Positions 2,032-6,976 of a stretch of DNA of 64,000 nucleotides are shown here, one piece after another (the stretch's first letter is position 1; every line of letters begins with the position of its first letter). The position numbers were made by a program, and so were the translations under genes. Origin of the DNA: Allochromatium vinosum DSM 180. Lineage in GTDB: Bacteria > Pseudomonadota > Gammaproteobacteria > Chromatiales > Chromatiaceae. A model generated the notes under the pieces. The model was not told where the DNA came from and did not search any database. It was given only the letters and a program-made list of their open reading frames with translations. The stretch spans positions 2,337,501 through 2,401,500 of the forward strand of contig NC_013851.1 in NCBI RefSeq assembly GCF_000025485.1, in the 5' to 3' direction.

Positions 2032-2490
2032 CTAGTAGCCCCGAAAGTACCAGAGGTTGTTCCAGCCCGGCGGGTAGAGCCGGTGAAAGGACTCACGATC
2101 CTGGTCGATGCGCTCCTGGCGCTCGGCGCGGCGGCGGCGCAGATCCTCCTCCCAAGCCTCTGACTGGAGCGCGCCCTGTGGATGATGGGTGCGGCGGCGT
2201 TGCTCGTGCTGCTCGCGCACGGCCGAGCGCCGAGCCTCCCAGGCTTCGCGCTGGGCGCGGACCTCGTCGAGCCAGGGCGCGGTCACGTCCGGTTGAGCCA
2301 TGCCGATGGACGCCGGATCGACCGGGACAGCGGCTCGCCCCCCGGGCTCATCGGCGATCGCCAACCCGGTCAGGGCGAGCAGAACGCCGCCAACCAGACC
2401 GAACGCCGGGCCTCTCGCGCCCGAATACACACTGGCTACACTCGAGGTCTGACCCGGCTCAGGCCGCAGGACGCGCTTCGAGTCGATCAT
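2032..2490 (-). CDS. Small exported or membrane-anchored protein of unknown function
   Basis: A 152-residue open frame whose start lies inside the last codons of glnD. One hydrophobic segment (FGLVGGVLLALTGLAIA, residues 30-46) ends in a plausible signal-peptidase site. The mature part is very rich in Arg, Glu and Gln (EAWEARRSAVREQHEQRRR and similar) and probably helical, ending in an aromatic tail (YPPGWNNLWYFRGY). I recognise no family. The 32-base overlap with glnD and the hydrophobic N terminus suggest a real gene read from the glnD transcript, and the start may be further in. A charged periplasmic helical protein is all that can be said. Confidence 0.55.
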   Translation of the reverse strand: MIDSKRVLRPEPGQTSSVASVYSGARGPAFGLVGGVLLALTGLAIADEPGGRAAVPVDPASIGMAQPDVTAPWLDEVRAQREAWEARRSAVREQHEQRRRTHHPQGALQSEAWEEDLRRRRAERQERIDQDRESFHRLYPPGWNNLWYFRGY

Positions 2491-5116
2491 GGATCTCGCG
2501 CCTCAGACAGGACAGCGCCTGCTCGCAGGTGATGGGCGTCTCCTCGGCGGTCGTGATGAAGAAGACGTCGTCGACCTCGGCGCCGACGGTGGCGATCTTG
2601 GCATTCTGCAACCGGATGCCGCACTGCTCGAACACCGCCCCGACCTCGGCCAGCAGTCCCGGCCGGTCGAGGGTCGTCAGACGCATGATGGTGCGCTGGT
2701 TGGGTTCGTCGACCGAGAAACACACGCGCGTCTCGATCGGAAAATGCCGATGCTGACGCGAGGCCGTGCGCGTGACCCGGATGCGGGCCTGGGTCGGTTC
2801 GGCCAGACGCGCCGCGAGCTGTTCGCGCACCTCGCCGAGACGCAATGGATCGTCGATGGGCGCGCCATCGCGATCGAGCACCTGATAGCTGTTGACCACC
2901 ATACCGTCGCTGGTGGTCATGACGCGCGCATCCATGATGTTCAGGCCCATCTGATCGAGCGCGGCCGTGGTGCGGGCGAACAGATTGTCGCGATCGCGCG
3001 AGTAGATGAAGATTTCGCTGCCGCCGCGCGCGGTGATCGGCCGGATGTCGACCAGTGGCCAGTCCGCCGGCCCGGTCTCCAGCATACGCCGGGTCTGCCA
3101 GGCGATTTCGTCGGGCGAGTTGTAGAGAAAGAAGTCGCGGTTGAAACGCTGCCAGAGCGCCTGACAGGTGTCCGGTTCGACGCCATAGCGCGCCACCAGA
3201 CGCAGACCCTCGGCCTGTTTCTGCGCGACCAGCTCATCCTGGGCCTGGGGATTGTCGAGACCGCGCAGCAGCGCGCGCCGGGTGCTGTAGTAGAGCTCGC
3301 GCAGCAGCGCATCGAGCCAACTGTTCCAGCGTCCCGGATTGGTGGCGCGCGCATCGGCGACGGTCAGCAGATAGAGATAGTCGAGCCGGGTCGGATCGCC
3401 GATCAGCGCGGCGAAGGACTGGATGACCTCCGGATCGCCGATGTCCTTGCGCTGCGCGGTCATGGACATCACCAGATGCTGTTCGACCAGCCAGCACACC
3501 AGCCGGCTGTCGAACGCGCTCAGACCATGGTGCTGGCAGAAGTCCCAGGCGTCGCGCGCACCAAGGCTGGAGTGGTCGCCGCCGCGCCCCTTGGCGATGT
3601 CATGGAAGAGTCCGGCCAGATAGAGCAGCTCCAGCTTGGGGATGCGCCGTGCCACCGCGCTACAGAGCGGGAACTCTTCGTCGTGCTTGGGGATGACGAA
3701 GCGGCGCAGGTTGCGCAGCAGGGTCAGGGTGTGCTCGTCGACCGTGTAGACGTGCAGCAGGTCGTACTGCATGCGCCCGACGATGTTGGCAAAGGCCGGG
3801 ATGTAGGCCGGCAGCACGCCGTATCGGCTCATGCGGCGCATGGCGTGGGTGAGCCCGATCGGTTCGCGCAGGATCTCCATGAACAGACTGCGCGCGCGCA
3901 GATCGGCGCGGAAGCTGTCGTCGATACGATGGCGGTTCTCGCGGATCAGGCGGATGGTGCTGGCACGCACGCCCTCCAGCTCGGGATGGGTCTGGAGGAT
4001 GTGGAAGACCTCCAGCAGCGCGATCGGTGTGCGCCGGAACACGCTTGGCGATGTGACCTCCAGATAGCCGCTGCGCGACTGGAAGCGCTTGTTGATCGGC
4101 ACGGGCGGGCCGATGTCGTCGTGCAGCAGGATCGCCTCGCCGAAGAGCTGCAACAGCATCTCGTTGAGCTGATTGAGCTCCTGGACGGTGCGATAGTACT
4201 GCTGCATGAACTGCTCGACGGCCAGATTGTTCTCGCCGTCGCTGAAGCCGAACTGATGAGCCAGGGTGCGCTGATAGTCGAACAGCAGCCGGTCCTCGTG
4301 CCGCCCGGCCAGCCGATGGAGCGCGAAGCGGATGCGCCACAACAGAGTCTGGCCGCCGATCAGGGCCCGATGCTCGGCTTCGGTCAGAAAGCCGTGATCG
4401 ACCAGCTCGTGCAGCGTCTCGGCGCCGAAATGACGCTTGGCCACCCAGCCGATCATCTGGATGTCCCGGAGACCGCCGGGATTCTCCTTGATGTTGGGTT
4501 CGAGGTTGTAGGCGGTGTCGCCGTACTTCTGCCAGCGCGCGCGCTGCTCCTGGGTCTTGGCGGCGAAGAATCGCTCGCTGTTCCAGAGACGGTCGGGGCC
4601 GGTGGCCGCGCGCATATCCTGGAAGAGCGCTTCAGAGCCCGCCAGCCAGCGTGCTTCCAGCAGGTTGGTCATCACCGTGACGTCGGCCTCGGCCTCGCGC
4701 ACGCAATCCTCGACCGTGCGGACACTGTGACCGACCGCAAGCCCGATGTCCCACAGCAGGGTCAGCAGACGCTCGATGGACTCGATCAGCGGGGGCGAGG
4801 GTTCGGCGTCGATCAGGATCAGGATGTCGATGTCGGAGGCCGGATGCAGCTCGCGCCGTCCATAGCCGCCGACCGCCACCAGCGCCGCAGCGGAGGATTC
4901 GCTCAGATGCAGGGTCCAGACATCACGCAGGACGGCGTCGATGAGTTCGCTCAGTTCACGGACCAGGCGCGTGACCGGAACGCCCTGGTCATAATGCTGG
5001 TAGAGCGCGTCCTTCCCCGCTCTGAGCCGTTCCTTGAAGAAGCGCAGTGAGTCCGACGGCGAGAGCGTCGAGTCGACCGGCGCGGTGGCGGCGAGCAGGG
5101 AGGCGCCCTGGGTCAT
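2459..5116 (-). CDS. glnD: Bifunctional PII uridylyltransferase/uridylyl-removing enzyme
   Basis: Nitrogen sensor that adds UMP to PII proteins when glutamine is low and removes it when glutamine is high. The 885-residue product has all family domains in order: a nucleotidyltransferase domain with GGYGRREL (83-90) and catalytic Asp95/Asp97, an HD domain with LFHDIAKGRGGDHS near residue 500 for UMP removal, and two C-terminal ACT domains near residues 700 and 810 (DRDNLFARTTAALD and TTLDRPGLLAEVG) that bind glutamine. The start MTQGASLL was chosen because its ATG overlaps the map stop codon by four bases. Longer upstream reading adds an Arg/His-rich segment typical of out-of-frame map sequence. 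The order map-glnD is conserved in gammaproteobacteria. Confidence 0.97.
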   Translation of the reverse strand: MTQGASLLAATAPVDSTLSPSDSLRFFKERLRAGKDALYQHYDQGVPVTRLVRELSELIDAVLRDVWTLHLSESSAAALVAVGGYGRRELHPASDIDILILIDAEPSPPLIESIERLLTLLWDIGLAVGHSVRTVEDCVREAEADVTVMTNLLEARWLAGSEALFQDMRAATGPDRLWNSERFFAAKTQEQRARWQKYGDTAYNLEPNIKENPGGLRDIQMIGWVAKRHFGAETLHELVDHGFLTEAEHRALIGGQTLLWRIRFALHRLAGRHEDRLLFDYQRTLAHQFGFSDGENNLAVEQFMQQYYRTVQELNQLNEMLLQLFGEAILLHDDIGPPVPINKRFQSRSGYLEVTSPSVFRRTPIALLEVFHILQTHPELEGVRASTIRLIRENRHRIDDSFRADLRARSLFMEILREPIGLTHAMRRMSRYGVLPAYIPAFANIVGRMQYDLLHVYTVDEHTLTLLRNLRRFVIPKHDEEFPLCSAVARRIPKLELLYLAGLFHDIAKGRGGDHSSLGARDAWDFCQHHGLSAFDSRLVCWLVEQHLVMSMTAQRKDIGDPEVIQSFAALIGDPTRLDYLYLLTVADARATNPGRWNSWLDALLRELYYSTRRALLRGLDNPQAQDELVAQKQAEGLRLVARYGVEPDTCQALWQRFNRDFFLYNSPDEIAWQTRRMLETGPADWPLVDIRPITARGGSEIFIYSRDRDNLFARTTAALDQMGLNIMDARVMTTSDGMVVNSYQVLDRDGAPIDDPLRLGEVREQLAARLAEPTQARIRVTRTASRQHRHFPIETRVCFSVDEPNQRTIMRLTTLDRPGLLAEVGAVFEQCGIRLQNAKIATVGAEVDDVFFITTAEETPITCEQALSCLRREIHDRLEARPAA

Positions 5117-5892
5117 GAGACGCCCAGGGTCGCACGCTCGGCGGCGCGCAGGGTCAGAATCTCGTGGCCGGTCTCCGTGACCAGGATGGTGTGTTCCCAC
5201 TGAGCCGAGAGACTGCGGTCCTTGGTGACGACGGTCCAGCCGTCCGGCAGCACCTTGATGAAGCGCTTGCCGGCGTTGACCATGGGCTCGATGGTGAAGC
5301 ACATCCCCGGCTTGAGCCTCAGACCCTCGCCGGGCTTGCCGTAGTGCAGCACCTGCGGGTCTTCGTGGAACTCCTCGCCGATGCCGTGTCCGCAGTATTC
5401 GCGCACCACCGAATACCCCTGGGTCTCGACGAAACGCTGAATGACATGCCCGATGTCGCCGAGCGTGGCCTCCGGCTTGACGGCGGCGATACCGAGCATC
5501 ATCGCCTGCTGCGTGACGGTTACGAGCCGACGGGCGAGCACGGACGGCTCGCCGACGAAGAACATGCGGCTGGTGTCGCCGTGATAGCCGTCCTTGATCA
5601 CGGTGATGTCGATATTGACGATGTCGCCCTTCTTGAGCCGCTTGTTGCTCGGGATGCCGTGGCAGACCTGATGGTTGATCGAGGTGCAGATCGACTTGGG
5701 GAAACCGCGATAGTCGAGCGGAGCCGGGATGGCGTGATGGTCAACGATGTAGTCGTGACAGAGCCGGTCGAGTTCCTCGGTGGTGACGCCGGGTTGGACA
5801 TGGGGCTCGATCATGTCGAGCACGTCGGCGGCCAGACGGCAGGCGATACGCATCTTCTCGATCGCCTCTGGGGTCTTGATCCGCACATTCAT
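5113..5892 (-). CDS. map: Methionine aminopeptidase type I
   Basis: Removes the N-terminal methionine from new proteins in the cytoplasm. The 259-residue product has the complete set of metal ligands, Asp95 (NIDIT), Asp106 (HGDTSR), His169 (GHGIG), Glu202 (TIEPM) and Glu233 (QWEHT), plus substrate-binding His78. The start at MNVRIKTPEAIEKM gives the usual type I length; upstream in-frame residues are unlike the family. The gene is transcribed divergently from rpsB across a 340-base gap and is translationally coupled to glnD. The map/rpsB divergent arrangement is common in gammaproteobacteria. Confidence 0.97.
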   Translation of the reverse strand: MNVRIKTPEAIEKMRIACRLAADVLDMIEPHVQPGVTTEELDRLCHDYIVDHHAIPAPLDYRGFPKSICTSINHQVCHGIPSNKRLKKGDIVNIDITVIKDGYHGDTSRMFFVGEPSVLARRLVTVTQQAMMLGIAAVKPEATLGDIGHVIQRFVETQGYSVVREYCGHGIGEEFHEDPQVLHYGKPGEGLRLKPGMCFTIEPMVNAGKRFIKVLPDGWTVVTKDRSLSAQWEHTILVTETGHEILTLRAAERATLGVS

Positions 5893-5954
5893 CTTACGGT
5901 TGGAAGCATCCACGGTCTTTTGATATCGATTCGGCTCGTCAGACGTTCGGGCAT

Positions 5955-5984
5955 TTGCCCCTGTGTAACCGGCTATGGTATAAA
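5955..5984 (+). promoter_or_regulatory. Predicted sigma-70 promoter of rpsB
   Basis: TTGCCC (5955-5960) and TATAAA (5979-5984) are separated by 18 bases, in a locally AT-richer stretch. The -35 element lies within an inverted repeat, GGGCA-TT-TGCCC (5949-5960), that could be an operator. Transcription would start near 5991, giving an untranslated leader of about 240 bases before rpsB. Read by eye; no start site mapping is available. Confidence 0.6.
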
Positions 5985-5990
5985 ACGCGG

Positions 5991-6232
5991 CGCGCTGTCG
6001 CAATTGACGACTATCCACCATGGCACATGATGGGGGCTTGCGGCGGCGACACCAAGGCGGAAATCTGCGTTTCCGCTCTTTTTCGTTTGGCCCTTCGGCC
6101 AGGCACGCCCCACAGACGTGCCGATCCGTCCACACACGCGCCGTCACAGAGACTGGGTGCCCGTTCACTCGGGTTGTCGCCTGGGGCGCGTGGAGGCCTA
6201 ACCCAACCATTCAGATTCAGGAAGTGAAGATC
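5991..6232 (+). promoter_or_regulatory. Long structured rpsB leader RNA
   Basis: About 240 bases between the predicted promoter and the rpsB start hold no convincing gene. The leader contains a terminator-like hairpin at 6057-6085. In E. coli the rpsB leader is an autoregulatory target of ribosomal protein S2 and overlaps the t44/tff RNA. A conserved rpsB leader structure is known across gammaproteobacteria. The same role is inferred here from position and length; I did not fold the whole leader. Confidence 0.5.
6057..6085 (+). terminator. Intrinsic terminator or attenuator inside the rpsB leader
   Basis: A perfect 7-base-pair stem, GCGGAAA (6057-6063) with TTTCCGC (6070-6076), closes a six-base loop and is followed at once by TCTTTTTCG. 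This is the classic form of a Rho-independent terminator, but it lies after the predicted rpsB promoter and about 150 bases before the gene. It therefore more likely attenuates rpsB or ends a short leader RNA than ends an upstream gene, because map runs the other way. Confidence 0.6.
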
Positions 6233-6976
6233 GTGAGCAACGTCACCATGCGTCAGATGCTGGAGGCCGGCGTCCATTTCGGCCACCAGACCCGTTACTG
6301 GAACCCCAAGATGGGGGCTTTCATCTTCGGGCAGCGCAACAAGATCCACATCGTCAACCTCGAGAAGACCCTGCCGCTCTACCAGGATGCCGTGAACTTC
6401 ATGGGCACCCTGGCCGCCAACGGCGGCAAGATCCTCTTCGTCGGCACCAAGCGCGCCGCGCGCGATGCCATCCGCGAAGAGGCCGAGCGTTGCGGCATGC
6501 CTTTCGTCAACCACCGCTGGCTCGGCGGCATGCTCACCAACTTCAAGACCATCCGTCAGTCGGTCAAGCGCCTGAAGGATCTGGAGGCCATGTTCGAGAG
6601 CGGCACCATCGAGCGCTTCAACAAGAAGGAAGCTCTGGGTCTGTCGCGCGAGCGTGACAAGCTCGAACTGAGCCTCGGCGGCATCAAGAACATGGACGGC
6701 CTGCCGGACGCGCTCTTCGTCATCGACGTCGGCCACGAGAAGATCGCCGTGACCGAGGCCAACAAGCTCGGTATCCCGGTCATCGGCGTGGTCGACACCA
6801 ACAACGACCCGAGCAACGTCGACTACGTCATCCCCGGCAACGACGACGCCATCCGTGCCGTGCGTCTCTACATCGCCGGTGCGGCCGACGCCATCCTCGA
6901 CGGTCGCAGCACCGCTGCCGCCATGGTCGGCCGTGGCGCAGGCTCCATCCAGGACGAGGCTCAGGCCGAGGCGTGA
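6233..6976 (+). CDS. rpsB: Small ribosomal subunit protein S2
   Basis: Ribosomal protein uS2 (247 aa). The family signature is clear from the N terminus: [20 protein letters not shown], then [16 protein letters not shown] and [14 protein letters not shown] chose the GTG at 6233 because AGGAAG lies eight bases upstream and the length matches the family; longer in-frame upstream sequence is leader. It is the first gene of the rpsB-tsf-pyrH-frr cluster and is preceded by a structured leader likely to mediate autoregulation. A strong hairpin separates it from tsf. Confidence 0.97.

Follow-up and report, generated by a model that had tools for sequence, protein, structure and literature searches.

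A predicted terminator between the promoter and the t44 element of the rpsB-tsf leader in Allochromatium vinosum and related Chromatiaceae

It is unusual for a transcription terminator to separate an essential ribosomal-protein operon from the one promoter that can be seen for it. The case considered here comes from a 64,000-nucleotide stretch (the window) of the 3.67-Mb genome of Allochromatium vinosum DSM 180, whose genus also includes A. palmeri and A. warmingii. In this stretch rpsB (ribosomal protein S2) occupies 6233-6976 on the plus strand with a GTG start, as judged from the open reading frame and from relatives; map is divergent from it on the minus strand, with a start near 5892 as read from the sequence, and both map and the glnD-type gene upstream lie on the minus strand and have a Pfam match. 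A preliminary description of this DNA had reported a promoter (TTGCCC, an 18-nt spacer and TATAAA), a hairpin with a T-run and the rpsB GTG at 6233, and inspection of the sequence found all of these as described. Several long frames are open in the same region: the rpsB frame (6020-6976, plus strand) extends back to an ATG at 6020, giving 318 aa, the map frame (5113-6210, minus strand) is open to 6210, and a 288-aa frame (5164-6030, plus strand) lies opposite map. Pfam returned no family for the plus-strand frames 2489-5050, 5164-6030 and 5955-6227, and the three long open frames (at rpsB, at map and opposite map) are probably by-products of high G+C.

The promoter itself is supported by homology. 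It spans 5955-5985 on the plus strand, with a -35 element (TTGCCC, 5955-5960) and an extended -10 element (TATGGTATAAAA, 5974-5985) that contains the TATAAA box at 5979-5984. The extended -10 or a near variant precedes t44, the structured element discussed below, in 80 of 81 leaders scanned (the best 80 related loci and the window), and its E. coli counterpart is TGTGGTATAAAG. In E. coli K-12 the annotated start of tff lies 7 nt after an identical TATAAA box, with rpsB 162 nt further; by analogy, the rpsB transcript of A. vinosum is predicted to start at 5991, which would give a leader of 242 nt. A simple promoter scanner did not list the rpsB promoter because its rule needs a T at the last -10 position; it listed a different site at 6004-6031.

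The hairpin occupies 6056-6085 on the plus strand and has the form of an intrinsic terminator: a perfect stem (GCGGAAA at 6057-6063 with TTTCCGC at 6070-6076, extended by a G6056-T6077 pair) is followed directly by the tail CTTTTTCG at 6078-6085, and the predicted energy is -11.5 kcal/mol. A terminator scanner run over 3.6 kb listed this hairpin and two other terminator-like sites where 2.0 were expected; with the count so near expectation, the hairpin in isolation is weak evidence. When the window's promoter-to-t44 interval was shuffled with dinucleotides preserved, an equally good terminator arose in 29 of 1000 shuffles, which makes the hairpin modestly unlikely by chance. The stem occurs once in its own genome. 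The possibility that it belongs to a dispersed repeat was considered and rejected: the pattern GCGAAAAA-N3-7-TTTTTCGC was found in five of 57 family genomes, once in each, and four of the five matches lie at rpsB; the fifth (L112, genome G016) is on a contig other than that of t44 and has no T-run. A blastn search of 5900-6300 against plasmid records matched only the t44/rpsB part, covering at most 28% of the query.

How does the hairpin relate to the known E. coli leader, with which the preliminary description had proposed a comparison? A covariance search, also proposed there, found the t44-type rpsB leader, the S2 operator region of gammaproteobacteria, at 6113-6202 on the plus strand (Rfam RF00127, 62.8 bits, E 8.9e-13, against a gathering score of 44), and the genome has no further match; RF01815, the Rfam model for rpsB, stayed below its threshold (29.2 vs 40). 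The hairpin is not part of the t44 structure, as its stem ends at 6077 and the t44 match begins at 6113. The t44/tff locus of E. coli shares the operon, a similar promoter and the same t44 structure before rpsB, but it has no terminator between the start and t44 (its longest T-run there is three), whereas the short RNA proposed here would lie upstream of t44 and would not overlap the t44 match. The comparison thus holds for t44, which is present as a separate downstream element, but it does not extend to the terminator: judged by sequence comparison, it has been added to the leader in some of the Chromatiaceae and is not a variant of E. coli tff. Control by S2 at the rpsB leader is described as translational in a review (PMC10931766).

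Because the window alone is only modestly significant, related loci were compared, using the best 80 related rpsB loci among the matches listed. The test of promoter-to-t44 intervals covered the window and 79 of these 80 (L065, with its promoter unrecognised, was left out). The outcome was decisive: a strong terminator was found on the plus strand in 17 of the 80 intervals, against a mean of 1.05 in shuffled sequences (20 rounds) and none on the reverse strand. The carriers are the window, A. palmeri, three Chromatium, Thiobaca, Thiocystis, two Marichromatium, two Thiodictyon, Lamprocystis and its relative L063, Thiosymbion, and the metagenome-assembled genomes L057, L069 and L073, of which L073 has an unrelated hairpin. 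A match at L109 in the scan was set aside, since it is not a compact terminator and failed the interval test. Outside the family, 33 of 36 class loci were oriented and scanned, and they gave weak matches at L152, L154, L166 and L170 (-6.7 to -8.1 kcal/mol).

The distribution is confined to one part of the tree. In a quick tree of S2 and EF-Ts, all 17 carriers fall in a single 48-row Chromatiaceae clade, and the Sedimenticola/Thiodiazotropha side, with 33 rows, has none. To explain where the terminator is present, eight changes are required on this tree, which does not itself distinguish gain from loss; remnants of the hairpin seen by eye in Imhoffiella and others suggest an early gain and several losses. 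Within the genus, the Allochromatium form of the stem is common to the window, A. palmeri, G003 and G005, while G002 and G004 have no hairpin, G007 has a broken stem with a weak tail, and A. warmingii (G006) has a different hairpin with a poor tail; a window-type leader occurs once per genome in five of the eight genus genomes. Many Chromatiaceae, some Allochromatium included, lack the element or have it in decayed form, and it is therefore not indispensable. Since Thiocapsa, Thiohalocapsa and some Allochromatium keep the promoter and t44 without an intact terminator, the effect of the terminator would be directly comparable between relatives.

A covariance model (R1) built from 16 non-Allochromatium hairpins gave a second view of the same element. 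It matched 28 of 210 family genomes at one place each; the stem being palindromic, seven of its matches also appeared on the opposite strand. An S2 frame (recognised by FGHQ) follows within 450 nt downstream at all 28 places, and 27 have the promoter upstream and the t44 motif downstream, the exception being L135. Among 274 genomes drawn across the class, a set with a few family members and no positive control, R1 found no match. It also found none in the window: the Allochromatium form, whose stem has G-C in place of the fourth A-U pair, was missed, so the model is specific to the AT-rich stem form. Place, spacing and pairing are what suggest homology between the Allochromatium hairpin and the others.

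The anatomy of the stem was followed in 32 hairpin-bearing leaders (36 loci were tried, and L055, L057, L073 and L135 failed the search expression); these are related sequences and not independent, and they include L177, whose stem is decayed. In 15 chosen leaders of the 32, identity is 0.90 and 0.99 in the two arms vs 0.32 in the upstream and 0.25 in the downstream flank, and the first eight positions of the tail are 0.80-1.00 T with one exception at 0.20. A stem containing G+C and an immediately following T-run on the coding strand, the two features of an intrinsic terminator, are therefore conserved together. The fourth pair of the stem is A-U in 20 of the 32 leaders, G-U in eight and G-C in four, an exchange that points to pairing in RNA. 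Stem pairs were counted in each sequence by folding because MAFFT had set the Allochromatium stem out of register; covariation of the stem in alignment A2 was reached by seven of 500 shuffles.

The position of the hairpin is nearly fixed as well, in relation to the promoter. In 26 of the 32 leaders the distance from the -10 to the start of the stem is 53-73 nt (110-289 nt in the other six), and in 27 of 28 the stem is separated from t44 by anything between 14 and 138 nt. As the distance to t44 varies, the near-constant quantity is that from promoter to terminator, and an RNA ending at the terminator would be roughly 80-105 nt in most leaders. In the window the predicted RNA runs from 5991 to 6085 on the plus strand, about 95 nt, with its start placed by analogy with tff and its end at the T-run.

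Taken with the conservation of the hairpin, this spacing favours premature termination with release of a short RNA among the three explanations put forward in the preliminary description, which named attenuation, a short leader RNA and a second promoter. The reading that we consider likely, and that the sequence comparisons argue for, is a partial intrinsic terminator in a single-promoter leader, where an RNA of about 95 nt would be released and rpsB-tsf expressed by read-through, in the manner of the UpsM RNA described below. The hairpin at 6056-6085 would be a real intrinsic terminator in the 5' UTR of rpsB-tsf, downstream of the one promoter visible for the operon. Of the polymerases initiating at about 5991, many would halt near 6083 and would release a structured RNA composed of a 5' domain (P1/P2) and the terminator hairpin (P3); those that read through would go on to transcribe the t44/S2-controlled leader together with rpsB and tsf. 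The terminator would in this way set, and may regulate, transcription of the operon ahead of translational control by S2. The comparisons establish the homology of the promoter, the conservation of the hairpin, its near-fixed position and the lack of a visible second promoter; we infer from the arrangement that termination takes place in vivo, that it is partial, that the RNA ends lie about where they are drawn and that read-through could be regulated. In Allochromatium and several related purple sulfur bacteria, the rpsB-tsf operon probably has to be made by read-through. If this is true, the translational control by S2 for which the gammaproteobacterial system is known would be joined by a transcriptional layer. 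A bolder proposal, which we put forward only tentatively, is that the near-fixed terminator and the structured 5' domain could form a dedicated regulatory RNA of the Chromatiaceae, about 95 nt long and made in proportion to promoter activity, that might act in trans or sense a factor governing read-through into rpsB-tsf ahead of S2 control.

The folding of the RNA before the terminator was also considered. In the minimum-energy fold, the segment 5993-6048 (plus strand) forms a domain of two helices: P1 pairs 5993-6003 with 6038-6048, and P2 pairs 6014-6016 and 6018-6021 with 6030-6036. Folding of the leader, which the preliminary description had suggested as a check, recovered this domain, but the whole 260-nt window leader folds no better than its shuffles (z +0.78), and the pre-terminator domain of the window taken alone is not significant (z -1.37). 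Across the 32 leaders the pre-terminator fold is at or below the 5% shuffle level in 16, with a mean z of -1.82. When five Allochromatium-type leaders were aligned, 94.5% of the cells in P1 were paired, a figure biased by the fact that the structure was derived from these sequences; covariation in the five is weak, being equalled in 56 of 500 shuffles. Several other leaders form a local 5' hairpin instead of P1.

These folds bear on the best placed of the alternatives, a regulated attenuator in which P1/P2 would sense a ligand or a protein (for example S2 or another ribosomal protein) and a competing fold would disable the terminator. P1 lies directly 5' of the terminator, in 11 of the 32 leaders, the window included, no more than 5% of 60 shuffles match its pairing, and the pre-terminator region folds better than shuffles on average, all of which would suit a sensor. 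A classical attenuator, however, needs an antiterminator, and none is visible because the 5' arm of the terminator (the only arm examined) pairs upstream less than in shuffles (a mean of 2.41 vs 3.46 nt), with none of the 32 leaders beyond 95% of its own shuffles. P1 is also near zero in leaders with an intact terminator, such as L054, L063, L056, L130, L131, L069, L093 and L142, and the S2 site in t44 is downstream, still unmade when the polymerase reaches the terminator. We regard regulated attenuation of this kind as unlikely.

A second alternative would make the hairpin a processing or stability element of the leader RNA and not a terminator. The moderate stem energy (a median of -11.8 kcal/mol in the 32 leaders) and the frequent interruption of the T-run are what one might expect of such an element; the T-run is nevertheless conserved together with the stem while the sequence beyond varies freely, and we think this explanation unlikely, and somewhat less probable than regulated attenuation.

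Two separate transcription units could also produce the arrangement, with a small RNA made from the upstream promoter and ended by the terminator, and rpsB transcribed separately from a promoter located beyond 6085. That the upstream unit is of near-constant length would fit, as would the gap of at least 27 nt before t44 in several species, the window's included. The second promoter that this requires, also raised by the preliminary description, did not appear: when promoters were scored with hand-entered weights, the best downstream site was below the main promoter in all 32 hairpin-bearing leaders and none was exceptional when compared with shuffles of the same leader (the lowest fraction was 0.09). 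In Thiocystis, Thiobaca and L034 the T-run touches the t44 match or runs into it, which leaves no space for a downstream promoter; L034, L037 and L038 have it inside or directly beside the match. The upstream promoter, moreover, also precedes t44 in relatives that lack the hairpin and in E. coli. Two units seem to us very unlikely, and with no second promoter visible, polymerases that make rpsB mRNA must pass the terminator as far as can be told from the DNA.

The remaining alternatives fare worse. Control of the terminator by translation of a leader peptide would call for a conserved frame running into the hairpin, and most of the 32 leaders do have an ATG frame that enters it, with several of these sharing one reading frame and similar residues; the similarity arises because the frames read the conserved stem. 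Counting ATG starts only, at least seven leaders (L031, L177, L053, L054, L063, L111 and L115) have no such frame, different groups use different frames, several run on for 200 codons without a stop and no clear Shine-Dalgarno sequence was seen by eye; no conserved translated frame into the terminator was found across the 32 leaders, and a peptide attenuator is highly improbable. An inverted repeat bound as DNA by a dimeric regulator, to which we give just as little credence, would account for arms that are near-fixed at 10-11 bp, but the G-U pairs in eight of 32 leaders break the symmetry of the DNA while keeping the RNA stem, the spacer length differs by up to 2 and only one side has a conserved T-run. 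That the hairpin terminates a plus-strand gene lying opposite map (frame 5164-6030, which stops 26 nt short of the stem) is scarcely credible: the window, L031, L063 and L128 each have a long plus-strand frame whose end falls in the 60 nt preceding the hairpin, but a frame of at least 150 codons ends there in only four of 32 leaders (L173, L175 and L177 have too little upstream sequence to count), the frame has no Pfam match and the rpsB promoter lies inside its end.

The closest known system to the partial terminator favoured here is found in another operon. UpsM is a terminator-derived RNA from the mraZ/dcw leader of Rhodobacteraceae, including Rhodobacter sphaeroides, with one promoter, and read-through is estimated at once in 100 transcription events (PMC5089854). 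As predicted from sequence for rpsB, the two cases share a family-restricted, extended 5' UTR of a core operon with one promoter and a terminator inside the leader, together with a short RNA upon termination and expression of the downstream genes via read-through; they differ in operon and class, and UpsM and its read-through were measured, whereas the rpsB case is drawn from sequence alone. UpsM is reportedly about 200 nt, vs about 95 nt for the rpsB leader RNA. Among ribosomal-protein leaders, that of rplJL in Bacillus subtilis is subject to a transcription attenuation mechanism, which acts through L10(L12)4 (PMC4538822); control there is by a ribosomal protein complex, while no regulator is known here and no competing fold was found. 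A literature search of limited depth found no report of a terminator in an rpsB leader.

The leaders of the family vary in other ways between promoter and t44. Just downstream of the terminator, the window has two further hairpins before t44 (6088-6122, plus strand), one formed by TGGCC/GGCCA within 6088-6101 and one by GGCACG (6102-6107) with CGTGCC (6117-6122); Allochromatium relatives inspected by eye have hairpins of different letters at this position. Five Thiocapsa leaders (L042, L045, L046, L048 and L180) have no terminator and show, by eye, a strong G+C hairpin without a T-run before t44. The promoter-to-t44 interval reaches about 340-545 nt, far above most loci, in Thiohalocapsa, Halochromatium and relatives (L058, L059, L060, L062, L071, L072 and L075). 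L090 has a non-homologous candidate with a 5-bp stem, noticed by eye after the scans had missed it. The strong terminator of L073, likewise non-homologous, consists of a G+C-rich stem and seven T directly before t44, about -142 to -110 from the rpsB start, and it occupies the same architectural place. In genome G038, finally, a second and decayed-looking copy of the hairpin (L115:1364-1394) can be seen by eye 5' of the intact one in the same leader.
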